Positions 4,288 through 64,000 of a stretch of 64,000 nucleotides of DNA are shown piece after piece. The DNA lies in assembly GCA_029204225.1 (NCBI GenBank), contig CM055094.1:11761859-11825858 (forward strand). The letters are read 5' to 3'. The position numbers and the translations under genes were made by a program. The stretch comes from Diphasiastrum complanatum (Eukaryota; Streptophyta; Lycopodiopsida; Lycopodiales; Lycopodiaceae). The notes under the pieces were generated by a model. The model was not told the DNA's origin. It was given only the letters and a program-made list of their open reading frames with translations, and ran no database searches. Numbering within the stretch: position 1 is the first letter of the stretch; every line of letters begins with the position of its first letter.

Positions 4288-5447
4288 CTATTCATATGGA
4301 CTACCGTCAGTTCCTCTGGAAAATGGAACTGGTGGTTCTGGAACTTGGGTTTCTCCTTCCAAATACTTGAGTACTTTAGCCATTGTCGGTCTTGCTGATA
4401 CCTCCTCCTGAATACACCATAAAGCAACATATGCCATCCTCCTCACCTGCTCAATGTCTGCATCAGCCACTATTACTCTTGCATCAACAATATTCATATA
4501 CTTGTCATATTTCACCTGATCGTATGCCCACGCTGGGAAATACATTGTGCTTGAAGTAGCTTTTGTATCCACATTTTTTCTAAGAGGACCATACCAAAGT
4601 TATAAACATCGATCTTATCTGTTATACCAGTGTTGCCGAAGAACCATTCGGGTGCGAGGTACCCTCTTGTTCCTGGAACTACTGTAAAAGCCCTGTTTTC
4701 CTCTTTATCCAAGAGCTTTGCCATTCCAAAGTCCGAAACCTTGGGGGTGAAGTTCTTATCAAGAAGAACATTTTCTGGTTTGACGTCGCAATGAATTATG
4801 TGCTTTCTGCATCCATCGTGCAAATAGGCAATGCCACGGGCCGTGCCCAAAGCCGCTTGAAATCGCTGTTCCCAGCTGAGTATTGAAGAATCTGCGTTAT
4901 CGGGCTCGTAAAAAATGTGTTGATCTAAGGACCCGTTCTCCATGTACTCATAAACTAGTAGCCTCTCCGATCTATGATGACAGTATCCAACAAGTTCAAC
5001 CAAGTTGTAATGGTGAACATTGCCAATGGTGGCAACTTCAGCTGCGAACTGGGACTCGCCGTGGCCTGTAAATTCCAGTCTCTTAACAGCAACAAACCGT
5101 CCATCAGGCAACTGTCCTTTGAACACAGAACCAAACCCGCCTCTGCCAATTTTTTGGCTAAAGTTATTGGTGGCAATCACCATCTCATTGTATTGAAATT
5201 GAATAGTTGAGCTCCAAATTTCATGTGCAGTAATTACAAGGCTTCTCTGCCGAATGAGCCTGTCGTTAATGGATCTTGCAGCTCTTTGAGCATAAACAAA
5301 TAGCTTAGAGCACTTACGCAGGTATATCAGGATTGCAAAAGCACAAACAACTGCTGCAACTGTTGTTGCTGCACCAACAAAGAGCACTTGCGTTAGCGAG
5401 AAACTATGAAGACTCCATAGCAAGACTACATTTGGAATTGATAACCC
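4288..5447 (-). pseudogene. Receptor-like protein kinase, frameshifted, ectodomain missing
   Basis: The frame runs from about 5447 and shows one membrane segment (FVGAATTVAAVVCAFAILIY), a basic juxtamembrane stretch and a Ser/Thr kinase. Visible are the Gly loop GRGGFGSVFKG, catalytic Lys in FVAVKRL, IIHCDVKPENVLLD (non-RD type loop), SDFGMAKL, GTRGYLAPEWF and DVYNFGMVLLE. After VLLE near 4575 the frame changes. The kinase C-terminus continues at 4572-4288 with YFPAWAYDQVKYDKYMN and RPTMAKVLKYLEG. A short deletion with a frameshift at an A-run explains this. The loop and C-terminus resemble G-type lectin or LRK10-like kinases. The extracellular domain is absent; an in-frame TGA lies at 5448-5450, so an upstream exon may have been lost. 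Confidence 0.8.
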
Positions 5448-5864: not shown

Positions 5865-6545
5865 AATTGGTTGCTTGGAGTGAGGGTGGATCAATCACAT
5901 CTCATTGTTCGGTGGAGAACAAGCAGGACATGATCATCGAAGCTCAAAATTGGTATGTCATAAACAATTGCTAGGACGAGAGATTTCGAAGAGGAAACAT
6001 ATTTGCATATAGTAGCAAAATTCAAATTGCTTGAAATTGATCAACTCTCTAGGAAATTGAGTCAAATTACTTAGTGTGTTTGTTCTAGGTTGGGACAAGA
6101 TGCTACGAGAATGTTCTTGATACACATGCACTAGTGACAAGAATATAAGTTGTGAGTTTTGTAGTAGGGTAGACTTCTATGCTCTGGTTGGAAAACCTTG
6201 GATGTTGAGCTACATAAGCTCATTTTTGGAGCATTTCTTATGGTTTTCCAAGGGCAATAAATAAATGCAACAACAACAACAAAAGTCTCACACTCAAGGT
6301 GAGAACAATGGATCACGCAAGAAGCTTTTCTGCAGATATTGCAAGAGAGCCAATCACGACATCAAGGAGAGTCGTATCCGCAATCTACAACGAGGCAAAG
6401 AAGCAACAACAGCAGCACCCAGACTCCTCCAATGTGGTGGAATTTAAGGAGCAAGATACACACATGTTAATGGCTTACAACAGTGGCAACGAAGATCATG
6501 ATAGCTGTGGAAAAAGTACAAAAAGGACCAAGAGTGGATCCTAAT
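5865..6545 (+). pseudogene. Ty1/copia gag fragment with zinc knuckle
   Basis: Downstream of the primer site, scattered stops break the gag frame. From about 6265 the frame has a Gln-rich stretch and then CRYCKRANHDIKESR at 6331, a CX2CX4HX4C knuckle whose last Cys is replaced by Ser/Arg. A second frame carries on with KEQDTHMLMAYNSG before a stop at 6542. This is the nucleocapsid end of a copia gag. The matching protease begins only at 10836, on the far side of a minus-strand element, which suggests an interrupted copy. Confidence 0.65.
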
Positions 6546-6669
6546 CTGATCCTCAAGAGGGATTGGATGTTAGATTTACTTGATCTATCAATCTACATAA
6601 GATTAAGATCAATCTAGATCAATTCTAGACATAAAATCCAAACAAGAACAATCATTTATTGAAGGTAAA
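6546..6669. other. Short spacer of unknown origin
   Basis: This is 124 bp of AT-rich sequence between the gag stop and the LTR of the inserted element. It does not read as gag or protease in any frame, and it is not the target duplication of the neighbour. Confidence 0.4.
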
Positions 6670-7336
6670 TGTACTTGCTGGTTTCACACGTGTAAAACCC
6701 TGTCAGGGTACGGACTCCAACCTGAAAATCAAGTACACATTGATAGAACCTCAAAACAATCAGAACAAATTAGACAAATGGAGAGAATCACTCAAAATTG
6801 CTTCCAAAACCAAGATTGGTGTCTCACATTGATTATGGCCAAATGTGGCTCTATATATACAATAAGTGGGAGCTCGTGGTACTGATCATCCCTTTGATCC
6901 CACATGTGTGAAGGTGCTTTGTCATATGATGATTCATCATGCAAAACTGACACTTGGACAAAACCTTCTATTTTGAGCACTTTTGGTCCATTTTCCTTCT
7001 ATATGGAGATCTACTTGGAAATCTTCTAGAAGTCAAAATTTGCCTACTTCAGCTTATTCCACACATGTGAGCTGTCCTCTACACATGGGATATGACACCT
7101 AACCAAAGATGTGGCTCATGCAATCAATAGATTGATGCCATGTGTCATATGTCTAGAAAACTAGTTTTTGGCATTTTTAGCCACTAGAACTTGAATTAAA
7201 TCATATGTACAACCTATATGATTATGGTACATGACAAGTACACTATTTTCACACATGGGAATAGGCTCCACACATGTGTGTTTATCTATATACAAGATTT
7301 TTGGCCTCTACCAAGCTTATTTTTGCATTTTTCACA
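6670..7336 (-). repeat. 3' LTR of the 6.7-10.8 kb element
   Basis: 667 bp, TG...CA. Nearly identical to 10165-10834. It contains a TATA-like run near 6850 that, on the minus strand, lies roughly two thirds into the LTR, as expected for a U3 promoter. Confidence 0.9.
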
Positions 7337-7345
7337 CTCCTCCTC
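7337..7345 (-). other. Polypurine tract
   Basis: GAGGAGGAG on the minus strand directly precedes the TG of the 3' LTR, the usual position of the plus-strand primer. Confidence 0.75.
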
Positions 7346-7539
7346 AAAAATCTAGCTTGGTAAATCTAGCTTGATGGAAAACGTGATGATCTTGAACTTG
7401 ACTCCATGGGTTGAATTGGTCTTTGCTGGTTCAAAAGGTGTGAAGATCAGCCAACGAGCTTGATGTTGGTCTGAAATCACCATATCCATGATAGTGCTTC
7501 TTTGATGTTGACATCTTTGATGAGCTTGAGAGCTTTGCA

Positions 7540-8196
7540 CTATCCTAGCACCTCCAAAATTGATTCCTTCCAAATTTCATGTAGATGCTTGACTTTGAGG
7601 CGTGCTCCTTCTTCATGTGCATGCTCCTTCATGAGAAAATAAATATTTCTTCTTGATTTATTAGGATCACAAAGATCTAACATCATGTTACCATGATCTA
7701 GAGAATTAGACTCATCCAAATTGGCAAGACTATGCATGCTATAATAACAAAGTGTTTGCATCATATCTTCATGCTTGTCTACCATGCTAATCTCTGATCC
7801 AATGAGGCTAAATACTTCATTATGGAGATAAGTGTCTTTAGAAGATGATTCACTTACTCTCATAAAGAGTTTACAATTTGCCTCAATACAAATTTTCAAA
7901 CTATGAGTGAACAAATCACTTTTGCTCGTGCATGACTCAAGAGCATACATTTGATGAAATAACCATTTGCTTTCTAATTGATTTAAAATCAATTTCAACC
8001 TTTTAAGAACATCATCTATGTTCTCAAGAGAGACTTCATACTCAACCAGTATGGCTTTACTCCAATTTGGAGATGCAATGATCTCACTAAAGCGAATTGA
8101 TTTATCAAATGACATAAGAGAAATAAGTATGTGATGTATACCACATGAGATATGCTCCTCTTTCCCTTGAAATGTGAGCCACATGGACTCAACCAT
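7540..8196 (-). CDS. Downstream frame of element protein, second copy of unknown domain
   Basis: 218 residues in the -1 frame relative to the upstream frame (8016-9431), overlapping it by about 180 bp. It contains FSEIIASPNWSKAILVEYEV and, further on, EANCKLFMRVSESSSKDTYL followed by HNEVFSLIGSEIS. These words repeat, in the same order and similar spacing, words in the upstream frame, so this is the second copy of one domain. It ends with MKEHAHEEGARLKVKHLHEIW. It matches no protein family I can name. Whether the two frames were one protein broken by an indel, or are joined by ribosomal frameshifting, cannot be decided here. Confidence 0.6.
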   Translation of the reverse strand: MVESMWLTFQGKEEHISCGIHHILISLMSFDKSIRFSEIIASPNWSKAILVEYEVSLENIDDVLKRLKLILNQLESKWLFHQMYALESCTSKSDLFTHSLKICIEANCKLFMRVSESSSKDTYLHNEVFSLIGSEISMVDKHEDMMQTLCYYSMHSLANLDESNSLDHGNMMLDLCDPNKSRRNIYFLMKEHAHEEGARLKVKHLHEIWKESILEVLG

Positions 8197-9431
8197 ATTT
8201 CTTGAGTTTCTTTTTGGATCACAATTTGAGAAGGTCTCTCCTCCTCAATCCTAGGCACACTTGAACCTTGAGAAGGATTCTCCTCCTCAATCCTCGGCAC
8301 ATTTGAACCTTGAGATGACTCCTTAAGATCCTCTTCATGGTGCTCCTTTTTGATGGAAATTTGAGACCTCCATGTCTCATAATGATCACAACAACTATGA
8401 CCACACAATATGCACTTCCTATGATTATCAAAATTACTTATGCTAAAAACATAAGTCCAAAAATCACCACAACTTGGCATGATTTTTCTAATATTGAAAT
8501 CAAAAGGTATTTCCATCTCAATAAGGCTAACTACTTCCTTATGGATATAAGTGTCCACTTTGGATGCTTCACTTATTCTCATAAGAAGTTTACAACTTGC
8601 CTTTAAGATTGAAAACTTACAATTTTCATCTTTATGAATGAACACATCATTCATGATCTTATTGAAACCAAAAGATCCTACATTATGAAGATATTTCCAT
8701 TTCCTTGACTTCATAACTAATGTAAGCTTACAAGGAAAACATATTTTGCTATCTTTTAAGGCATCACACTCAACTAGTATTGCCTTAATCCACCTATGAG
8801 ATACAAAAATCTCTTCAAAGCAAAATGGTTCTTCATAAGTTGACATGATAGCATAAATGAAACTATTTTCATTTTGTGATTGCTGATCCTTATTCTTGAT
8901 TGATTTCTCTTGGATCATAACAATAAGTTTGAACTTATCTAAAGCTCCAAGCAAAATACTTTCCAAGGATATAAAATAAATCCAAGTTACTTTCATGAAA
9001 GTGACATCTATCTTTGCATCTTGAACCAAACAATGCACTCCCAAATGAAAAATTTCAAAAGATTTGACATGTGTTGTGATGGACTCTTGAAGACAAATCT
9101 TGCAAGTCCTTGTGAGACTCCAAGCCTCATTCACCTTTCCACAAAGGAAACACCTTTCCTTGGACTTGTCCTTCTTGTATTTGCATTTTGAACTTGAAGC
9201 TCCATCCTTCACCTCGGCCCCCTTGCTTTGATTCTCCTTGGATGGACTGGTCTTCTTTTTGTAGCATCTTGAGAAAAAATATCCTCCCTTGCCACAAAGG
9301 TTGCACTCATGATCCTTTCTTTCCTTCAATAGAATGCCACCTATTGATGCCATGTGAATAAAAACCTGTGATATGATTCTACAAATGTAATTTGTGACTT
9401 TCAAGAGACTAGATTTGAACATCTTCAACAA
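8016..9431 (-). CDS. Unknown element protein: degenerate knuckle plus first domain copy
   Basis: 471 residues. Near residue 43 is CNLCGKGGYFFSRC, which fits a CX2CX4HX4C knuckle except that His is Tyr. A second Cys cluster, CFLCGK...CKIC, follows near residue 95, after a Lys-rich stretch. Then come FEEIFVSHRWIKAILVECDA and KASCKLLMRISEASKVDTYI with HKEVVSLIEMEIP, the first copy of the unknown domain. A third Cys cluster (CILCGHSCC) and a 14-residue tandem repeat (SQGS(N/S)VPRIEEE) follow. After about 8196 this frame is probably out of register. The protein may replace Gag for this non-autonomous element; that is inference from position and the knuckle. Confidence 0.6.
   Translation of the reverse strand: MLKMFKSSLLKVTNYICRIISQVFIHMASIGGILLKERKDHECNLCGKGGYFFSRCYKKKTSPSKENQSKGAEVKDGASSSKCKYKKDKSKERCFLCGKVNEAWSLTRTCKICLQESITTHVKSFEIFHLGVHCLVQDAKIDVTFMKVTWIYFISLESILLGALDKFKLIVMIQEKSIKNKDQQSQNENSFIYAIMSTYEEPFCFEEIFVSHRWIKAILVECDALKDSKICFPCKLTLVMKSRKWKYLHNVGSFGFNKIMNDVFIHKDENCKFSILKASCKLLMRISEASKVDTYIHKEVVSLIEMEIPFDFNIRKIMPSCGDFWTYVFSISNFDNHRKCILCGHSCCDHYETWRSQISIKKEHHEEDLKESSQGSNVPRIEEENPSQGSSVPRIEEERPSQIVIQKETQEIWLSPCGSHFKGKRSISHVVYITYLFLLCHLINQFALVRSLHLQIGVKPYWLSMKSLLRT
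8224..8308 (-). repeat. 42-bp tandem repeat in element protein
   Basis: Two near-identical 42-bp units on the minus strand encode two copies of a 14-residue SQGSxVPRIEEExP motif. Confidence 0.7.
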
Positions 9432-10143
9432 TCTAGAAGGATCTACAAAAGATCTAGCTCACAAACCTAAGAATCAATCTTCACAATAATGACTAGTCAC
9501 TTGGAAACTTTGCTTTGATCACTAAGACAAAAGCACACAATCTTTGAATCAAATCACTAAAGAAATCAGATCCAATCTCCTATTGGAATCATTAAATACC
9601 AATGACTCTTTCTTTTGAAAGTTGAAATGGATATGAAAAACATTTGACACCTAGATTTTCCTTTTCACTTGACTAGTTCTCTCAACACTTGAGATTCTTG
9701 AAGAAAAGATGGATTTTGTTTCAAACACATGAAAATCAAACTTAATCACTTCTTTTGGACTCACTCTTGACCCAAATAATCTCACTCTTGAGATTTAGAA
9801 TGAATTTGATTTGATTTGAAAACAAACTATACCACCAATTTTTCACAAAGCTAAAAAATTAGACAACTAGAGATTCACAAAGATCTCAACCATGCATGAA
9901 TACTCAAATATGGACTCCTCCTCATTCTAGACATCCAATGGGATCTCAAATTGACCCTCACACTCTCACAAAGAAAGTTGAATATAACTAATTTGAGTTT
10001 CATACATACTATGTCAATTTTTTCTCAATAAATTGATTCAATCACCCCTATTGGATTCCACCAATTACTCTACCTCTTAAGACTTGGAATGAAATTCAAA
10101 ATCAAAGGTTGTGATTTTTCTCACTAAGATATTGTGCTTCAAA
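9432..10143 (-). other. 5' leader of the non-autonomous element
   Basis: About 710 bp between the primer site and the first methionine of the long frame. It has no long frame and is AT-rich. It presumably holds the untranslated leader and any packaging signal. Confidence 0.5.
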
Positions 10144-10155
10144 GAGCTAATGCCA
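10144..10155 (-). other. Degenerate primer-binding site
   Basis: On the minus strand TGGCATTAGCTC lies about nine bases inside the 5' LTR. It matches the first nine bases of the iMet site TGGTATCAGAGC apart from two C/T transitions; the last three bases diverge. Confidence 0.45.
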
Positions 10156-10164
10156 CTTAGAAAG

Positions 10165-10834
10165 TGTACTTGCTGGTTTCACACGTGTGAAACCCTGTCA
10201 GGGTACGGACTCCAACCTGAAAATCAAGTACACATTGATAGAACCTCAAAACAATCAGAACAAATGTAGACAAATGGAGAGAATCACTCAAAATTGCTTC
10301 CAAAACCAAGATTGGTGTCTCACATTGATTATGGCCAAATGTGGCTCTATATATACAATAAGTGGGAGCTCGTGGTACTGATCATCCCTCTGATCCCACA
10401 TGTGTGAAGGTGCTTTTGTCATATGATGATTCATCATGCAAAACTGACACTTGGACAAAACCTTCTATTTTGAGCACTTTTGGTCCATTTTCCTTCTATA
10501 TGGAGATCTACTTGGAAATCTTCAAGAAGTCAAAATTTGCCTACTTCAGCTTATTCCACACATGTGAGCTTTCCTCTACACATGGGATATGACACCTAAC
10601 CAAAGGATGTGGCTCATGCAATCAATAGATTGATGCCATGTGTCATATGTCTAGAAAACTAGTTTTTGGCATTTTTAGCCACTAGAACTTGAATTAAATC
10701 ATATGTACAACCTATATGATTATGGTACATGACAAGTACACTATTTTCACACGTGGGAATAGGCTCCACACATTTGTGTTTATCTATATACAAGATTTTT
10801 GGCCTCTACCAAACTTATTTTTGCATTTTTCACA
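10165..10834 (-). repeat. 5' LTR of the 6.7-10.8 kb element
   Basis: 670 bp, TG...CA, nearly identical to 6670-7336. The close match implies a fairly recent insertion compared with its decayed neighbours. Confidence 0.9.
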
Positions 10835-10835
10835 A

Positions 10836-11300
10836 TAGCTGGTACCTGGACAATGGCGCTACCCAACACATGACCTCTTGCAAGGGATTGTTTACCAAGT
10901 ATGTAGCGTACAGCAGAGATCAATTCATCTACCTCGGAGATTCCAGCACCATACGCGTTGAAGGCAAAGGGACAGTCAAGATCACTTTCAACAATGATGT
11001 TTCTATCTAAGTCACTAATATTCTTCACGTACCTCAGTTTCCAAAGAACCTGTTGTCAGTTTCAAAGATGACTGATGAGGGCTACACTGTTACTTTCTCA
11101 TCTGAGCAGTGTACAATCTTCGATGAAGATACTACTCTGACTACATGCACTAGAGTCGAAAATCTTGACATACTCTCTAATTCAGTTGCATTAGCTAGCA
11201 TCTCTCATGAAAATGTAAATGATAATGCTATTCTGTGGCATAGTCGATTTGGACACATGAATACAAGATCACTTTCTGAGCAGACAACTTGTAATGCTTC
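10836..11300 (+). pseudogene. Ty1/copia protease and pre-integrase fragment
   Basis: The frame starts WYLDNGATQHMTSC, the copia aspartic protease active site (D-S/N-G-A). It continues with LGDSSTIRVEGKGTVKI, then an in-frame TAA at 11008-11010, then NILHVPQFPKNLLSVSKMT and, near 11237, LWHSRFGHMNTRSL, the GAG-pre-integrase histidine motif. Coding similarity stops abruptly near 11300, where a minus-strand gypsy fragment begins. Same strand as the gag piece at 5865-6545, so the two are probably parts of one copia copy separated by the 6.7-10.8 kb element. Confidence 0.8.
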
Positions 11301-12300: not shown

Positions 12301-13488
12301 TGTTGTAAAGCTACATTTATAAGCTTTACTTCCGGCACCACTGGCGCCAGCATTGTCCCCAGTGCCAGCAGCGCCGCTCCCGACGCCACTGTGACCAGAA
12401 TCCAGCCGGCGCCAAGTTCCTATGGCTGAAAATCTTTGATCGGTTCTAGCGAAGTCCAGAGAGCTCAGATCGATGTGCAATCACCTCACACGATCTAGGC
12501 ATGATTAAAGGAAGCCTGGGGATCAATAAACTCTAGAGAGAGAAAATGACTTTCTAGAGATGTGCTTTACCAGCCTGGGTAGAGTGCTTGCTATGAGGGG
12601 GGGGGTGCCGAATCCCACCAATACTATAGGGGAGTGCGGGTTGCGACTCAGGGCGAGCTCCAACCAAGTCTCAGCCTCCCTTGCTGGAATGTTGTCATGG
12701 CTCTCGCCTTGGCATGCTAGCGCCCGGAGACTAGGGTCGGTCACACACTTAAAATGTAACCTTCTCAGATTTATCAATAAAGTGGGATTTTTCTCAAACT
12801 GACTCTGATTACCTTCTGGGTTTCAGTGTTCGGTAAAAGCGCCAGTTGTAAGGCCGCTTCAAAATTTTTAAGTTGGCACATAGCTGAGGGTTGTATCTCG
12901 GGACGCCAGCGGTATGCCGTCGGGATCATTCGGTCCGTGGCGTCAGCGGTATGCTGTCGGGACCATTTGGTCCAGGAGCTGGTTGTCTCCATATTTGTCG
13001 CGGCTTGTGGTTCTGAGTGTTCCTTGCATGAAAGTGAATGGGTTAAGCTCTTGGGGAATGGGCTCTAACCTGTCGGTTGAGTTGGATGGCTTGCTTGGGT
13101 GGAAGTTACCTGTTTATGGCTGTCCAGTCTGGCGTGGCGCCAGGTTGGCTTCCAGCGCTCATGACGAAGCTTTCAGTTGGTTAAGTCTGATGTAAGTCAG
13201 ACCGCTTGCTTGGAATGGATGTTACTCGTTTGTAACGAAGCTTCGAGTTGGTCAAGTTTGATGTATGTCGGGCGGCTTGCTTGGAGGGAAGTCACCCACA
13301 TCGGGACCCCTCATCTGGCATGGCGCCAACTTGGATCTCAATGTTGGTTTTCGGAACTTCAAGTTGGTTAAGTCTGATCGTTGTTGGCGAGTTGGCTGCT
13401 TGTATGTCAAGTGGGTTTGGATGGCAAGAGTTGAAGGCTGGGAAGCTAAGTCGTGGTTCCTGGCTCCCTTTGGGATGCCTGCGCTACA
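12301..13488 (+). repeat. 5' LTR of LARD-like element
   Basis: 1188 bp, TGTTG...CTACA. It begins with a block rich in GGCGCC palindromes (12330-12420). A 36-bp segment near 12902-12970 is tandemly duplicated here but single in the 3' LTR. A roughly 75-bp subrepeat with the core GTTGGTTAAGTCTGAT recurs three times between 13160 and 13410. Confidence 0.95.
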
Positions 13489-22344: not shown

Positions 22345-23863
22345 CCATCACTTTGAACTCTCTACTTCACAAGTGATTGAAAGTAGAGATGTTATATTCC
22401 ATAAAGATCAACATCCATCACTTGTCCTTCAGAGCAGTATGCATTCTATGCTAAATGAAAATTGAAGACCCACCGAATATGTGAGGAACACTTTGAAGGG
22501 GTTGAGATCAAGTTACCTCAAGATCCATGAACTATCATGCCTATTGAAGACAATCAAAAGATGTTGGGGTCGAGATTTGAGGAGGAGTCTCCTCAGATTT
22601 TCACATCTAGGAGGACATCAAGAGAGAGATCCGAGCCTAAGAGGCTTTCTTATGTTGACAAAGACAAGCAAGTGGAGCTTGATTCCACCAACTTTGCATA
22701 TTTCATCTCACATGAAGAGCCAAAGGATGTTGAAGATGCACTCAATACCAAGGAGTGGTATGAGGCCATGAAACAAGAATATGAAGCCTTGATCATCAAC
22801 AACACTTGGGAGCTTGTGGATCCTCTATCCAACAAGCACATCATTGGATCCAAGTGGGTATTCCGCGTCAAGTATAATCAAGATGGCGCCATCAAAAAGT
22901 ACAAGGCAAGATTATGTGCCAAGGGATTTGCTCAAATCTATGGACTTGGTTATAAAGAGACCTTTGCACCCGTGGCAAAGATGGTGACAACAAGAATTCT
23001 TCTATCTCTTGCTACCTATTTCAAGTGGAAGGTGTTCCAATTACATGTTTCCAATGCATTTATCTTGAAGAGGAAATCTACATGGAACAACCTCAAGGAT
23101 TTATCAAGGATGAATCAAAAGTGTGCTTGCTTTTCAAAAGTCTTTATGGACTCAAGCAAGCACCAAGATCTTGGTATGAGAGACTCAACTCTTTTCTTAT
23201 CTCACTAGGATTCACTCTTAGTGACTATGATCCTTCCATGTATCTAAAGTTCGTTGCTAGTGATATTGTTATTCTTCTCATCTATGTAGATGACATTATC
23301 CTATGTGGAAGTTGTATCAAATTGGTTGAAGAAACCAAAATAGTACTTGGAAAAGAGCTTTGCAAGATCTAGGAGAGATCCATTATATCTTAGGCCTAGA
23401 GATTGACTTTCATGATGATTATGGTTTTATTTGTCAATCTACATATGCTCTTGTTATGTTGGAAAAATTCCAAAAAGCAAGCTACTATCTCTCTTTCTTC
23501 TTGTGAGGCCAAGTATAAAGCACTCACTACATCAACAAAAGAAGTGCTTTGGATCAAGAGGATTCCATTGGAGCTAAAGTGCATCAAAGAAGAGGAGCTA
23601 CCATTGATTGATTGTTGTAATATCTTGGCTCAAGCTCTTGCAAATAATCCATTTTTCATGCAAGAAGCAAGCACGTAGAAGTGGCACACCACTTTGTGAG
23701 AGAGAAGCTTATTGGAGGAGAGATCCATTTGGAGCATATCGATTCATCATCTTGTATTGCCGATCTACTCACCAAGCCTCTACTCAAGAGTTCCTTCATC
23801 AAACATAGATCCAATCTTGGAATGATTCCAAGATCCATGCTTTTCTAAATTAGATATCTTTTT
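22345..23863 (+). pseudogene. Ty1/copia pol fragment (integrase end, RT, RNase H)
   Basis: It starts near 22352 with STSQVIESRDVIFHKDQH, the C-terminal end of copia integrase. The RT follows: EWYEAMKQEYEALIINNTWE, GSKWVFRVKYNQDGAIKKYK, GYKETFAPVAKM, then a frameshift near 23040, then [35 protein letters not shown] and the catalytic LIYVDDIILCGS. After YALVMLEKF at about 23465 it jumps to KKQATISLSSCEAKYKAL (RNase H), so roughly 150 codons are missing. The element is 5'-truncated and followed by its purine tract and LTR. Confidence 0.85.
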
Positions 23864-33650: not shown

Positions 33651-34497
33651 TTACATGACCTGGTCTAAGCCAAGTTTGGCTCTAAAAGTTTCAAACTTTT
33701 CTTTACTTAAAGCTTTTGTAAATATATCAGCAACTTGTAACAACGTAGAACAATGTACAATACCTATGTCTTCAGATTGGAATTTTTCATGCACAAAGTG
33801 ATATTTTACTTCAATATGTTTTGTCCTTGCATGAAAGATTGGATTTTTAGCCAATTGTATTCCGCTTTTACTGTCACAAAAAATAACAGTGGGATTTACC
33901 TGCTTCATGCCAATCTCACATAACAACTTACGTAGCCAAATAGCTTCCTGGGTAGCAGAACTCAACGCTTTATATTCGGCTTCTATGGAAGAAAGAGAAA
34001 TAGTATCTTGCTTCTTGCTAGACCATGAAGCCGCTACCAAAATTGAAGGTATAACCTGTTGTTGACTTTCTATCATCTATACTTCCAGCCCAATCAGCGT
34101 CAACATAACCTTGCAACTTAGGTAAAACACTTTGTCTTTTGTAGACTAGACCAAGGTTCGGTGTACCTTTTACATACCTCAAATTCCTTTTTGCAGCTTT
34201 CCAATGGTTCATAGTGGGTGATGACATGAATTGGCTAATCAAACTTACAGCATAGCAGATATCAAGACGTGTAGTTGTAAGATATATTAAACTTCCAACT
34301 AGCTGACGAAATAGTGTAGCATCAACATGTGCACTATCATCAATACGAGATAATTTCTTACCAGCTTCGCAAGAGGTGATGGAAGGTTTGCACTCTGTCA
34401 TGTGAAATCTCTCCAATATCTTGCCTACATACTTGTTTTGACATAACCTGATATCACTGCTAGTTTGCCATACTTCAACACCCAAGCAATAGTGCAT
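33651..34497 (-). pseudogene. Copia RT C-terminus and RNase H
   Basis: The frame at 34497-34018 has MHYCLGVEVWQTSSDIRLCQ, RQLVGSLIYLTTTRLDICYA and GYVDADWAGSIDDRKSTTGY. The next (34076-33651) has ASWSSKKQDTISLSSIEAEY, IFCDSKSGIQLAKNPIFHAR and KHIEVKYHFVHEK, then ADIFTKALSKEKF. These are the tether and RNase H motifs of copia pol, with catalytic D and E residues present. One frameshift separates the two parts near 34050, and a stop (TAA) precedes the first. Confidence 0.85.
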
Positions 34498-35673
34498 AAG
34501 ATCTTAATCTGTCATCTCAAATTGCTTGCACAAGTTGGCTTTGATAGAACGAGTGAGGTTCTCATCATTGCCAGTGATAATGATATCATCAACGTAAAGT
34601 ACAATCAAGGCAATGTTTTCATCATTTATAAGAACATAAAGATCTGAATTTGTTCTTACAAATCCATGTGAAAGAAAGTAACTGTCAATGCGTCCATATC
34701 ATGCGCGTGGCGCTTGCTTAAGGCCATAAAGTGCTTTGTGTAGTTTACATACTTTCTGTTCTTGCCCTTTTGCCATGAAGCCCTGCGGTTGGACCATGTA
34801 AACTTCTTCCTCTAAGTCACCATTCAAAATGCAGACTTCACATCCATTTGATGGATCTTCCACCCAAAATGAGATGCTAAGGCAATGATAAGGCATAGCG
34901 TAGTCCACTTAGCCACTGGAGCAATTGTCTCTTCATAGTCAATTCCTTTGCTTTGCTCATAACCCTTCACTACTAGGCGTGCCTTATACTTTGCTATTGT
35001 GCCATCCGCATGAAACTTTGTTCTAAACACCCATTTGTTGTCAATGGGTTTCTTTCCAAGTGGTAGATCAACCAACTCCCATGTATCATGTCTTTGGATG
35101 GATTGTATCTCTTCTTCCATTGCCCTTTGCCACTCTTTGTGATCTTTTGCCTCATCAAAGGTTGATGGCTCTCGACACTTCAAAATGTCAGTCATTAGGG
35201 CATAGTTCACATGATAACGATCGGGAGACTTCCTTTCCCGTGTCGATTTTCTCACTTCACTTTGTGTGCTAGATCCTGTTTGATTTAGCTTTGCGTCCTT
35301 CATGATCTTTTCATACCATTTTGGTATCTTAGATTCAGGTGATACACTACGTGGAGAGTACTTATCCCAAGGAGTGTCCAAGTAATGTCTCTTACTTCCA
35401 AACGGTTTCTCCTTTATTGCTCCTATTGGCAAGTACCTCCCCCTAGGCTCTTGGATAGGTGGTGTTCTTTCATATTCGCCCTTTCGACTTTCGTCTTCAC
35501 GTGCATCATTTTGTGGAGCATCTTCTTCATTTTCTTCCTCCAGAATTGTGGGAAGTCTCTTGATGCTTTCACCGCTTGCATGGTCTTCATCTTCATACCT
35601 ATGCGTTTCATCAAAGATCACATCTTTGCTAATGTGAATCTTGTTCATTACAGGATCAAAACACCTGTAAGCT
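34498..35673 (-). pseudogene. Copia reverse transcriptase, broken
   Basis: From 35648: NKIHISKDVIFDE (integrase tail), an acidic linker, [54 protein letters not shown], then a frameshift at about 34830 after [11 protein letters not shown]. The following frame has [18 protein letters not shown] and [14 protein letters not shown], then a TGA in place of a Trp codon, then the catalytic YVDDIIITG near 34575. All RT motifs are present but in three frames. Confidence 0.85.
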
Positions 35674-36385
35674 TTCGTTCTTTTGATGACGACTCTCCTT
35701 CGTCATCATCATCCTTGGATTTCTTAGAAATCCTTTTCCATCCTTTCTGCTTGCCTTTATCCAGCAAGGCTTGATCCTCCTGTGGGGTTTGTCTTGACTT
35801 CACCACTTCGTGACGCTGCTCTTCTTGCAACATGATTCCGTGGAAGTCTTCAAAAGTAGGCAACCTCTCCCTCGAAGCAATGCCGCTCACAAACATCTGT
35901 AGCCCTTCCGAGACACCGCTCATTGTGGTATGTACCAATTCAATATCTCTGATTGGTTCTCCAATCGCCACAAGTTGATCTCTCAGCTCCTTTATCCTGG
36001 TGAAGAAGGATCCCACTGATTCATTTTCTTCCATCCTTATTGTGTTCAATCTCGACTTTAAGAACATGGCTCGAGCTGGATTGCAAGTTTGAAATTGCAT
36101 TCTAAGAGCTTCCCAAGCTCCCCTAGCCGTCGTGGCATCACTTATGTGAGTGATCACATGGTCTTTCACTGAAAGATTGATCAAGGATAATGCGCTCTGT
36201 GCCTTTTTATCAAAGGCCCTTATGTCACCTGGAGTGGTATTTGGTCGGACTTCAATACCTGCCACGATTTCCCACAACTCTTTTTCCATCAAAATGCTCT
36301 TCATTTTGAATTTCCAGATGTTGTAGTTAGAAGCCCCATCAAGTTTGCTTTCATCGCCCAAAATTGCCTCATTGACGTTTGCCAT
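35648..36385 (-). CDS. Copia Gag, intact up to deletion junction
   Basis: 245 codons from a clear ATG (MANVNEAILGDESKLDGASN). It contains the LDGASNYNIWKFKMKSIL start typical of copia Gag, then ALSLINLSVKDHVITHI, AWEALRMQFQ, LKSRLNTIRMEENESVGSFF, and RIKELRDQLVAIGEPI (UBN2-type Gag core). It ends in a Lys/Asp/Ser-rich stretch. The zinc knuckle that should follow is missing. The last eleven codons read through the deletion junction out of frame and stop at 35648. It would form the capsid; in this copy, incomplete. Confidence 0.85.
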   Translation of the reverse strand: MANVNEAILGDESKLDGASNYNIWKFKMKSILMEKELWEIVAGIEVRPNTTPGDIRAFDKKAQSALSLINLSVKDHVITHISDATTARGAWEALRMQFQTCNPARAMFLKSRLNTIRMEENESVGSFFTRIKELRDQLVAIGEPIRDIELVHTTMSGVSEGLQMFVSGIASRERLPTFEDFHGIMLQEEQRHEVVKSRQTPQEDQALLDKGKQKGWKRISKKSKDDDDEGESSSKERKLTGVLIL

Positions 36386-50247: not shown

Positions 50248-53200
50248 GTATGTGTGACATTCTATTGAAGATGACAAGTTGTACTTTAAAGCTTGGAGTG
50301 CTTTTCCCTTTTAAAGGTGTGTATGCTTTTTAGAAACTTTAAAGGCAATATATGTATTTGGCAATGGATTTTCTAGCGATGTTTGCATCCGGTGGAACGA
50401 CCCTAAAATGTAGGAGGCTGTAGGCTGAGCCATCTGTTGAGCTTTCCGCCTAGCTATAACCGGGTGGAAAGATGAGTAAAAAATACTCTCCCAAGCGTTA
50501 AGGATGGCAAGGCTGTCCCCTTTTGGGCTGATATTTTTTGAAGGGCATCATATTTCTTTTTTTTTAAGGGCTATAATATTCCTGGAATTTTTTTTAATGG
50601 TTATAATCTACTTGTAGAAGTTATTATGACAGGCTATGTAGCCTTTTTTACTCGTAGTCTGCCCTTAGATTTGCAATGGCTTTCTGACAATGTGAAGAAA
50701 TTAGGCAGTTCTCCCTATAAATCTCTTGAGAACGCAAACCTTTGCATGGTTTATTGCACCTCAAGAATGGACAGTCAAAAGCCACTTAAATCCTCTACGT
50801 TTCATGAGAAGCCCTCTTGTTTCCTTAAAATTATGGTTGAGAAATTGTTGGCAGTTGAGATTGTAATTAGAATCAAGCTTGACTTGATAATAATTAACCA
50901 GCAGTTACTAGGAATAGGTGAATCTAGAACTAGCGACTTTTCAAAACGTTAGAAGACATGAATAGGTGAAACGACAATCTGAGCAGTTGTATTGTTAAGA
51001 ATTTTGGGATCATGCTTTCAATATTAGGTCTTCATTTTATCCGAATGTTTTTGAGTGTTTTGTCATTGTCAGCTATTGATTTAGTAAGATTGTAGAATGT
51101 GGTAAGAGCTCTTGCACCCATCAATGTCGAATTAGCATGCCCTGGATAATGTTTTTGGTTTGAATTGGTGTGCAAAATTTGTTCCTGGTAGCTTGGCATG
51201 GTGTTTTATTTGTCTTGCTACCATCTGCTTCTTCAGGTGGCCTTTGCAAAAGTAATTCGCAACAAGCAGACAGGGCATTCTGAGGGTTATGGATTCATTG
51301 AATTTGTTTCTCACACTGCAGCCGAGAAAGCCTTGCAAAGTTACAATGGAGTCCAAATGCCTCAGGCAGAGCAGCTTTTTAGATTGAACTGGGCTTCTTT
51401 TGGTATTGGTGACAGACGGCCTGAGGCAGCATCTGATGAGTCAATCTTTGTTGGAGATCTTGCTTCAGATGTTACAGATTTTGTTCTGCATGAAACTTTT
51501 CACAGCCGTTATCCATCTGTCAAGGGTGCCAAAGTTATCATAGATACCATTACAGGGCGATCCAAGGGCTATGGCTTTGTGAAATTTGGTGATGAGCTTG
51601 AGAAGACTCGTGCTATGACTGAGATGAATGGAGTGTATTGTTCTAGTCGTCCTATGCGGCTTGGTACAGCCACACCAAAAAAAGCTTTAGGACCTGCTCA
51701 GCAGTTCAATTTCAAAGGTAAGTCTATAAAACTAGTCCTCTACATGTAGTACCAGATTTGTTCTATTTAAAATAAAATCTTACTTGAATGCAGCATCCAC
51801 GGTAACACATCCAGGGTCACTTGATTGTGAAGTAGCAGAGGTGTATTTGTATGTAGACCTAGGAGAACTTATTTTTAGCTCGCTCATTCCTGAGTCATTA
51901 GTTCCTGAAAAGTTGTAGATACACATAATATAATAGAAAGTTCTTAATCAATATGACATTGAATCTAGTATGACATGGTTATGAGTCATCACAAGGCTTT
52001 AACCATTGGAGTAGTGACTCATATATAATTATATCTTCTATTGTTGTTCTTGAAGTTGCTGGTGAATATGGATACTTGAAATTTATCCATGACACTTTCA
52101 GTTGTATACCCTCACTGTAAGATTCATGCTGAGAAACTATCACAGATTCTTTTAGGTCTCATGTTTCCTTTGTTAGCAAGGAAAAGTCATCATAGCCTGC
52201 TGCAGAAGGCTGTTCTTTGGCCATACATCGGAGATGGACTTTTGCAGTATTCTTTGTTCGCAGTTTATAAAGCTATTATTACATTTACTCATTCAGTTTT
52301 CTCCTGTACCCTCCTGCTTATTTCCTTTATGGTTCCAGTTATCCTTCAATTACAGTTCCTTTTTTTCATCCGTCTATTCAGCAGTTGTTGCTTTCGTTGT
52401 TCCTTACTAAGGAATTCCTGCTTTAAATCGTCCTATTCAGCAGTTTCTGCTTTGATTCGTCCTTGATTTCAGCAGCTGAGTACTGGAATCATTATTTGAA
52501 TCGTGAAACACATGCTCAAGTTGGATGTCAGTTTTACCTTTAGAGCTCATCAGACTTTATTTGTCTCAAAGCAGGATGGCAACTGGCTTCTACACAAAGG
52601 GGCCCTGAACAAACTTATTCAGTCCGAAGCATCTTGTGTAGTGGTTGGCCTATGCTTTAGGTCCATCGCCCTGTTTGTGTTTTTAATGCAGTTCACTCAT
52701 TTTATGAGCTTGGTGAACTTTGGAGCCAGATCGCTACCCCTCCATGGTCGCCAGTGTAGTATTATGGTAAGAACATAAGCATCATGAAGTTCTGATTATG
52801 TCCAGAGTGGTGCTTCTATATTGTTAAGTCAGCACAGAGAATAGGTACAAGGAGTCGTCCTTCAGTCGAGTTTACCACACTTGGTCTGTGGATCCCTTAT
52901 TAGCTTTCTCATTATTGAGACTGGTGATGATTTAGATTTCATTTATCATCAAAACTTTCAGGCTGCTTATTTTATATTCCCAAGACATGCTAGTTTTGTT
53001 TCAATTTCAAGTTTTTGAATAGGTGTCTTTGTGAGCAAGCTAGCAGATTCAAGTGCTTTGAAGTTGTCCTTTAAATTCAGTTAGCAGCATCTATAAAGAA
53101 ATGCTACATTCCTTTTTCTGGAGCTAAAAGAATGCAAATCCTGTTGAACTTATTAACACATTTGGTACGCCACTCAATACTTTTCAAGATTCATGGCATG

Positions 53201-63109: not shown

Positions 63110-64000
63110 CTCCCTCTTCAACTAGTTTTACCATAGACTTTGATAACACTCCAAGTGAAGTCCTATGCTTCATGAACAAGTCCTTTCCCAATGCTTTGGT
63201 GAAGATATCAACTACACATTCCCTTGAGGACACATGTTGAAGCACCACCTCATTTGCAATGACTTGCTCCCTCACAAAATGATATTGCACCTCAATATGC
63301 TTGCTCCTAGCATGAAAGATAGGATTGGTTGCCAACCTTTGGGCTGATTGATTGTCATAGAAGATGATTGGGCTCTCTGAAAAATCCAGCAAGTGAAGAT
63401 CCTTGATCATCCTCTTGATCCATACCATCTCCTTTGTGTAATGTGTAAGAGCTTTTTACTCGGCCTCACTAGATGACAATGATAAAGTGGCTTGTTTCTT
63501 CGACATCCATGATATAGCTCCATCACCTATGAAAATACAATGAGTGCTAATGGATTTCCTATCCATTACATCTCCAGCATAGTCCAAATCTGAAAATCCA
63601 AAAAGATTAGATGATGATCCCTCATACAATATGCCAAAATCTTGAGCTCCAATGATGTACCTCAAAACTTGTTTTCCTAGCTTCCAATGCTCCTCACTAG
63701 GATCTTGTATGAATTGACTCAATCTTCCAACACAATAGCTTAGATCTAGTCTAGTAATGGTTAGATAGATGAGTGAACCAACTAGCTTTCTATAGAGAGT
63801 AATGTCCTTGAAGGATCTTTCACTACCTCTTATAGTTAGATTTACATGAGACTCCATAGGTGTATCACTAGCTTTTGCATCTACCATATGAAATCTTTCT
63901 AGAATAGAACTAGCATACTTTTCTTGACAAATGAAAGTAGATTGAGAAGATCTAATGACTTCTATTCCCAAAATGTAATGCAAGATACCAAGATCATGCA
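63105..64000 (-). pseudogene. Ty1/copia RT end and RNase H, cut by window edge
   Basis: From 63983 the frame reads MHYILGIEVIRSSQSTFICQ, YRKLVGSLIYLTITRLDLSY, GFSDLDYAGDVMDRKSI and SKKQATLSLSSSEAE, then a TAA at about 63457 where Tyr-Lys-Ala is expected, then EMVWIKRMIKDLHLLDFSES, IFYDNQSAQRLATNPIFHAR, KHIEVQYHFVREQVI and VDIFTKALGKDLFMKH. Only one stop interrupts an otherwise well-preserved sequence, so this copy is younger than the other copia remnants. It continues beyond the window. Confidence 0.88.
63110..63119 (-). other. Polypurine tract
   Basis: GAAGAGGGAG on the minus strand directly before the LTR TG. Confidence 0.8.

Follow-up and report, generated by a model that had tools for sequence, protein, structure and literature searches.

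A damaged copy of a high-copy, probably trans-mobilised Copia-derived retrotransposon family with a mosaic protein in Diphasiastrum complanatum

Introduction

A stretch of 64,000 nucleotides from Diphasiastrum complanatum (assembly GCA_029204225.1, contig CM055094.1, positions 11,761,859 to 11,825,858; hereafter the window) holds a long terminal repeat (LTR) element whose only protein contains two copies of one domain, and the question raised by this locus is where such a protein comes from and what keeps its frame open. The original prediction, made from the letters alone, described a non-autonomous LTR element encoding a domain not familiar from Gag or Pol, and took its preservation as a sign of selection while the element moved. 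Our analysis indicates that the element is very probably a damaged copy of a high-copy, non-autonomous LTR family derived from Copia (hereafter family A), which encodes a mosaic protein and is likely mobilised in trans. The coordinates of its parts are collected in Table 1.

A mosaic protein with a duplicated unit

The protein of the window copy lies on the minus strand in two overlapping open reading frames (ORFs), 7540-8196 (218 amino acids) and 8016-9431 (471 amino acids), and the longest stop-to-stop frame reaches 480 codons, whereas none of 1000 Markov simulations gave one longer than 188. The predicted duplication is present: the copies in the two ORFs align over 177 columns with 31% identity (blastp E 9e-16), with a local score of 176 compared to a mean of 38 and a maximum of 72 in 1000 shuffles. 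The window is AT-rich (39% GC), which might favour an artefact of low complexity or chance, but no shuffle reached the observed score and we regard such an artefact as next to impossible. The copies differ at 202 of 486 aligned nucleotides and neither contains a stop; random substitution to this level introduced a mean of 9.8 stops, with at least two in every one of 500 simulations. As judged from the alignments, the repeated unit is longer than the two motifs first noticed, since it starts at the linker between Copia integrase and reverse transcriptase (RT), includes the RT start and continues for ~130 further residues, here called module X (X1 and X2 for the first and second copies), to which the second motif belongs.

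Comparison with Copia elements of the same genome assigns the zinc-knuckle region to the Gag nucleocapsid, the extra Cys cluster to integrase and the first motif to the integrase-RT linker and RT start. For the nucleocapsid, the integrase and both linker segments, none of 500 shuffles matched Copia as well, whereas in the same test X1, X2 and the C-terminus gave no match to Copia gag-pol beyond shuffles. Hence the claim of a domain foreign to Gag and Pol appears to hold for module X but not for the first motif, and the extra Cys clusters, although real, are not unfamiliar. In the integrase remnant the first catalytic Asp of the motif is not kept. The linker that holds a 42-bp repeat resembles the acidic Copia hinge. 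The Tyr-substituted knuckle (CNLCGKGGYFFSRC) was correctly recognised, with Tyr in 15 and Phe in one of 16 intact-frame copies of the family, and CILCG has its second Cys in nine of them, with Asn at that position in six and Thr in one.

Pfam scans of the window ORFs and of one intact-frame copy (L003) returned no domain at or above cut-off; the Gag capsid, protease, integrase core, RT and RNase H domains of an autonomous Copia are among those not detected. Together with the LTRs, polypurine tract and target-site duplication, this agrees with the non-autonomous LTR element that had been proposed. A sequence search of the PDB with the family-A protein and with X gave nothing convincing (best E 0.29 and 0.38), and no relatives appeared among viral contigs (searched with the protein and an X alignment) or genome contigs (searched with the protein), collections that are viral or prokaryotic and have little bearing on plants.

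Family A and the Copia partner that shares its LTR

Copies of family A were sought in the source genome, which comprises 5176 contigs and 1.74 Gb. Among the 27503 candidates of a first look, 102 matches were scored, the window copy included, and the 101 others are 90-96% identical to it. Of these 102 best matches, 21 have a frame that runs for 640 codons or more without interruption. The predicted preservation of some 600 codons applies to them, but not to the window copy, whose frame is interrupted near 8.2 kb. With up to two mismatches allowed, a 27-mer taken from the second module has 1985 occurrences in the genome and its reversed control none. Twenty copies, mostly picked for open frames, were fetched, and 16 of them are open for at least 640 codons, two pairs among the 16 being duplicates or near-duplicates. 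The layout of a full copy is LTR, TGGTATCAGAGCC primer-binding site, non-coding leader of ~1.57 kb, ORF of ~659 codons, polypurine tract and LTR; no long frame was found in the leader in the three copies translated. L018 (contig C8) and L019 (C19), which lie on separate large contigs, agree fully in ORF and in flanking bases, and thus represent a segmental duplication or assembly effect and not two insertions. Several further matches come in pairs of equal score, one on a large and one on a small contig (e.g., C6 and C3554).

The window copy spans 6506-10834 (4329 bp) and has a TG..CA-ended LTR pair and a polypurine tract. Because the tract abuts the 3' LTR, the sense of the element is the minus strand, and plus-strand sense is ruled out by the same position. 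The LTRs differ at seven of 667 aligned sites (K80 0.0106), in keeping with their description as near-identical; relatives have LTRs of ~832 bp, against 831 bp for the 3' LTR here. The window copy is ~1.02 kb shorter than L018 (5349 bp), having lost the final stretch of the 5' LTR, the beginning of the leader and the primer-binding site, which is seen in relatives. A short word beside the truncated 5' LTR that resembles a primer-binding site was dropped once the relatives revealed the real one. The bounds first given, 6670-10834, need correction on the left, where 6670 yields no target duplication and 6506 yields ATAGC on both sides; among eight relatives the 5-bp duplication is perfect in five and not in three. 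The element sits within another Copia gag-pol (window 6264-6500 and 10840-11100), between a Gag end (MLMAYNSGNEDHDS) and a protease region (WYLDNGATQHM), and joining the flanks across it gives an unbroken frame in which NEDHDS is followed by WYLDNG.

An 18-mer made of the LTR end and the primer-binding site (GCACA followed by TGGTATCAGAGCC) occurs 996 times in the genome and its reversed control never. The first 22 of the 996 sites listed lead into the family-A leader in 16 cases, a Copia Gag in four and neither in two. In the Gag-bearing copies L034/L036, identity to family A is 88.8% for the LTR (832 bp) and 86.6% for the first 586 bp of the leader. Beyond that point, broken frames encode a Gag, whose knuckle is normal (CFFCENKGHFASEC), and a protease motif, and the Gag start MASMGGFLL resembles the family-A MASIGGILL. 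Identity to L034/L036 is 94.6-96.0% in the three remaining Gag copies. Downstream of Gag, L057 carries part of an integrase (rve, SH3) and RVT_2, and the plus strand of L058 carries protease, pre-integrase and rve; on the minus strand of L058 lies another, distinct Copia, which has Gag, knuckle, protease and RVT_2. No fully intact autonomous Copia with the family-A LTR was present among the sites examined.

Because the LTR, the primer site and the first ~590 bp of the leader are common to family A and this partner Copia, we propose mobilisation in trans. Family A would retain the parts needed in cis, namely the 832-bp LTR, a primer-binding site of the initiator-Met type, the leader and the polypurine tract, and its RNA would, like that of other non-autonomous LTR elements, be packaged and copied by the Gag, protease, integrase and RT of Copia elements in the same genome; mobility itself is inferred.

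The two sites with neither family-A leader nor partner Gag (L044 and L048) are possibly further derivatives using the same LTR; L044 has a 66-bp match to the 3' end of family A and L048 none.

Module X and a second family

A linker-plus-X query gave 150 scored matches out of 5592 candidates. Among the fetched loci, L059 represents a second family (family B), in which a single 477-codon frame encodes Gag nucleocapsid, protease, linker, a short RT piece and one X. Pfam detects Pol_BBD in L059, with a knuckle below cut-off and nothing above cut-off for X. Over 129 codons the X of family B shares 43% of its amino acids with X1; with X2 the figure is 45-47% (125 codons; L018 and L010).

The origin of X is best approached from L059, where X occupies the position of RT-RNase H and 1.1 kb of pol is absent. 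Compared with the minus-strand Copia of L058, DNA identity is 78% in gag-protease, 72% in the hinge, 79% in the short RT piece and 95% at the 3' end of pol, and the 428 bp of X match nothing at E 1e-3. Since both flanks are 72-95% identical to Copia and this segment has no counterpart, X looks like a replacement, and is unlikely to be diverged pol. Such an insert would fit transduplication, in which part of a host gene is captured and joined in frame to a Copia with deletions, and gene capture is known for plant LTR elements, as described in the available text of PMC3726574. We consider this origin possible but doubtful: Pfam and PDB are blank for X and no host donor gene was found, a result that rests on one codon-constrained pattern excluding family A, whose two genome matches are near-identical duplicates of one family-B-like Copia locus. 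These duplicates (L031 on C6 and L032 on C251) are 5.5 kb long and 99.6% alike; L031 has Pol_BBD, an X behind the linker and a second, broken X upstream of a truncated Gag.

A second origin, that X is strongly decayed Copia RT fingers or Gag capsid, appears improbable. By eye, CKLFMRVSES..DTYLHNEVFSLI fits the RT fingers motif ending in ETFAPV, the tblastn alignments of the linker extend into KWLFHQMYALESCKSK against KWVFRLKYNQDGSISK, and hhalign of X1 plus X2 with RT scores 12.85, reached by none of 60 decoys (maximum 12.6) and, for X2 alone, by one of 60. However, these signals are set against the shuffle and the tblastn and profile comparisons with Copia, which do not support X as RT; likewise, X as Gag capsid found no support in sequence or profile comparison.

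Structure prediction, also suggested at the outset, gave a result of limited use: AlphaFold returned a mean predicted local distance difference test score (pLDDT) of 35.1 from two sequences and 45.9, with an all-helical model, from 19, and the best Foldseek match of the domain model in PDB (E 1.4) is uninformative at such low model confidence.

From these comparisons, the reading that fits best places family A after family B, as a state with the linker-X unit in tandem and most of Gag-protease gone. In the mosaic protein, which we read as the leftovers of deletions and joins in a Copia gag-pol, the order is Gag start, nucleocapsid, integrase zinc region, and then linker and RT start plus X, twice. 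Family B shows the same linker-X fusion once, in a Gag-protease frame that is otherwise recognisable, and tandem duplication is the presumed route to the doubled unit of family A, the joins plausibly being made by template switching or recombination. If so, an apparently novel retrotransposon protein can arise through internal deletion, the in-frame addition of a foreign module and a tandem doubling of the resulting joint, in an element whose LTR, primer site and leader remain like those of the partner. Module X is a defined sequence that can be traced in other plants.

Selection on the open reading frame

An alternative reading is that the family-A protein is a working trans-acting factor (in RNA binding, packaging or interference with the partner), with X a real domain kept and doubled because two work better. 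It should be noted that the sample is biased towards open frames. Among 14 intact-frame copies, the ratio of nonsynonymous to synonymous differences (pN/pS) is 0.67 (bootstrap 0.52-0.89), compared to a mean of 0.81 and a range of 0.45-1.41 in neutral simulations with the leader spectrum; the same copies diverge by 3.5% in the ORF and 4.5% in the leader. Individual regions have ratios between 0.33 and 4.05, with no clear pattern. Between modules, it is 0.92-0.93 for X1 and B, 0.61-0.63 for X2 and B, and 0.82 and 0.89 for X1 and X2, and the neutral ranges are 0.58-1.23, 0.62-1.16 and 0.62-1.13 at differences of 0.29, 0.35 and 0.38. In contrast, Gag-protease of related Copias gives 0.32 (B and L058) and 0.30 (L036 and L058). 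These near-neutral values, the variable second Cys of CILCG and the low-confidence structure model lead us to consider a working protein unlikely, despite the many long frames described above, the basic, nucleocapsid-like Cys region that is retained and the presence in two families of an X predicted to be all-helical. Variants common to at least three of the 16 copies also have a lower ratio than singletons, although counts are small (0.50, 18 synonymous to 37 nonsynonymous, vs 0.68, 53 to 148).

Two observations weigh against a protein free of constraint. The amino-acid identity of X2 and the X of B (0.45-0.47) exceeds the maximum of 0.41 in 300 neutral simulations, and no stop occurs in X1, X2 or the X of B where 3.7-4.7 are expected, in spite of nucleotide differences of 0.35-0.42. 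Identity between X1 and B (0.43) stays just below its simulated maximum (0.44), and alignment by protein similarity favours high values of this kind. Because pN/pS is near neutral compared to real Gag-protease and yet stops are missing, the frame appears to be kept while its residues are much freer than those of Gag. Amino-acid constraint on the family-A protein thus appears weak, with a hint of it in X2; the protein is probably without a strongly conserved biochemical role, and its frame may be kept open mainly because truncating stops are selected against. Of the selection originally suggested to have acted while the element moved, the open frame remains, and the substitution pattern among the 14 copies is indistinguishable from neutral.

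A bolder version, which we rate as a long shot, is that X is an undescribed helical domain from outside Copia, placed in frame behind the RT start in two families and doubled in one (at ~2000 places), which acts in trans on partner particles and avoids stops while its residues drift. If true, X could be an adaptor for packaging or a factor that interferes dominantly.

Comparison with known elements

The kind of element described here is already known, since the wheat RLG_Sabrina_NA derivatives, in the available text of PMC9744471, have the gag-protease region swapped for sequence encoding homology-less proteins and are thought to depend on an autonomous family. The same text also treats transfer of LTRs between families by gene conversion or template switching. 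However, Sabrina is a Gypsy element, and what is particular to family A, relative to that account, is the Copia scaffold with residual Gag, integrase and RT-start pieces and a foreign module twice in one frame. TR-GAG elements (available part of PMC6022998) are similar in being LTR elements with Gag-derived coding, no polymerase and a probable origin by deletion, but family A has no detectable capsid domain or Pfam gag match and carries integrase and RT-start remnants and X; family B, with its Pol_BBD and sub-cut-off knuckle in L059, stands nearer to TR-GAG as described there. LARD elements, as defined in the same portion of PMC6022998, have internal regions of >2 kb without a profile-recognised domain, and a domain-based classifier would place family A among them despite its open frame of Gag-Pol ancestry. 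Because Pfam detects no domain, domain-based annotation would label family A as non-coding or novel. Plant LTR elements with captured genes likewise amplify an in-frame foreign segment, and differ from family A in that no donor gene has been identified for X; in the accessible text of PMC3726574, many captured genes are neutral in rice and more are under purifying selection in sorghum. The antisense ORFs of Retand, as presented in the available part of PMC11963269, were set aside as a parallel, the family-A ORF being sense.

Features of the element and its surroundings

Table 1. Parts of the family-A element in the window, in window coordinates.
Feature	Position	Strand	Remarks
Target-site duplication, left copy (ATAGC)	6501..6505		Identical to 10835-10839; flanks joined give an open Copia frame
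3' LTR (sense direction), 831 bp, TGTG...CACA	6506..7336	minus	Matches full-length LTRs of many fetched relatives end to end
Polypurine tract TTTTTGAGGAGGAG, adjoining the 3' LTR	7337..7350	minus	Relatives have the same tract or a shorter one ahead of their 3' LTR
Last protein residues in the window copy	7540..7608	minus	
Module X, second copy (X2), and tail, KWLFHQMYALES...ANCKLFMRVSESSSKDTYLHNEVFSLI...	7609..8037	minus	Aligned to X1; shares 45-47% of amino acids with family-B X
Copia integrase-RT linker / RT N-terminus, second copy	8038..8196	minus	
42-bp tandem repeat (x2) in linker, encoding VPRIEEENPSQGSS-like units	8226..8309	minus	Repeat finder
Module X, first copy (X1), with C-terminal CILCGHSCCDHYETWRSQISIKKEHH tail	8337..8747	minus	Shares 43% of amino acids with family-B X (L059) over 129 codons
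Copia integrase-RT linker / RT N-terminus, first copy (FEEI..S..W.KAILVE)	8748..8885	minus	
Integrase remnant: zinc-binding Cys region and core start	8919..9143	minus	
Gag start (MASIGGILL) joined to Gag nucleocapsid region, degenerate knuckle	9135..9353	minus	
Remaining non-coding leader	9432..10164	minus	94-97% identity in relatives; full copies ~1.57 kb
5' LTR (sense direction), 3' end truncated	10165..10834	minus	Primer-binding site and first leader part also gone
Target-site duplication, right copy (ATAGC)	10835..10839		Identical to left copy 6501-6505

Other Copia fragments lie at 22537-23312, 34018-36385 and 63456-63983 of the window; RVT_2 is present in both of those scanned, one of which has Gag-like and RT frames side by side. 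The repeat finder also reports two 37-bp tandem units, 84% alike, at 12899-12972. Finally, the ORFs at 4512-5423 and 51198-51749 presumably encode a plant receptor-like kinase and an RRM protein, respectively, as judged from the look of their sequences.
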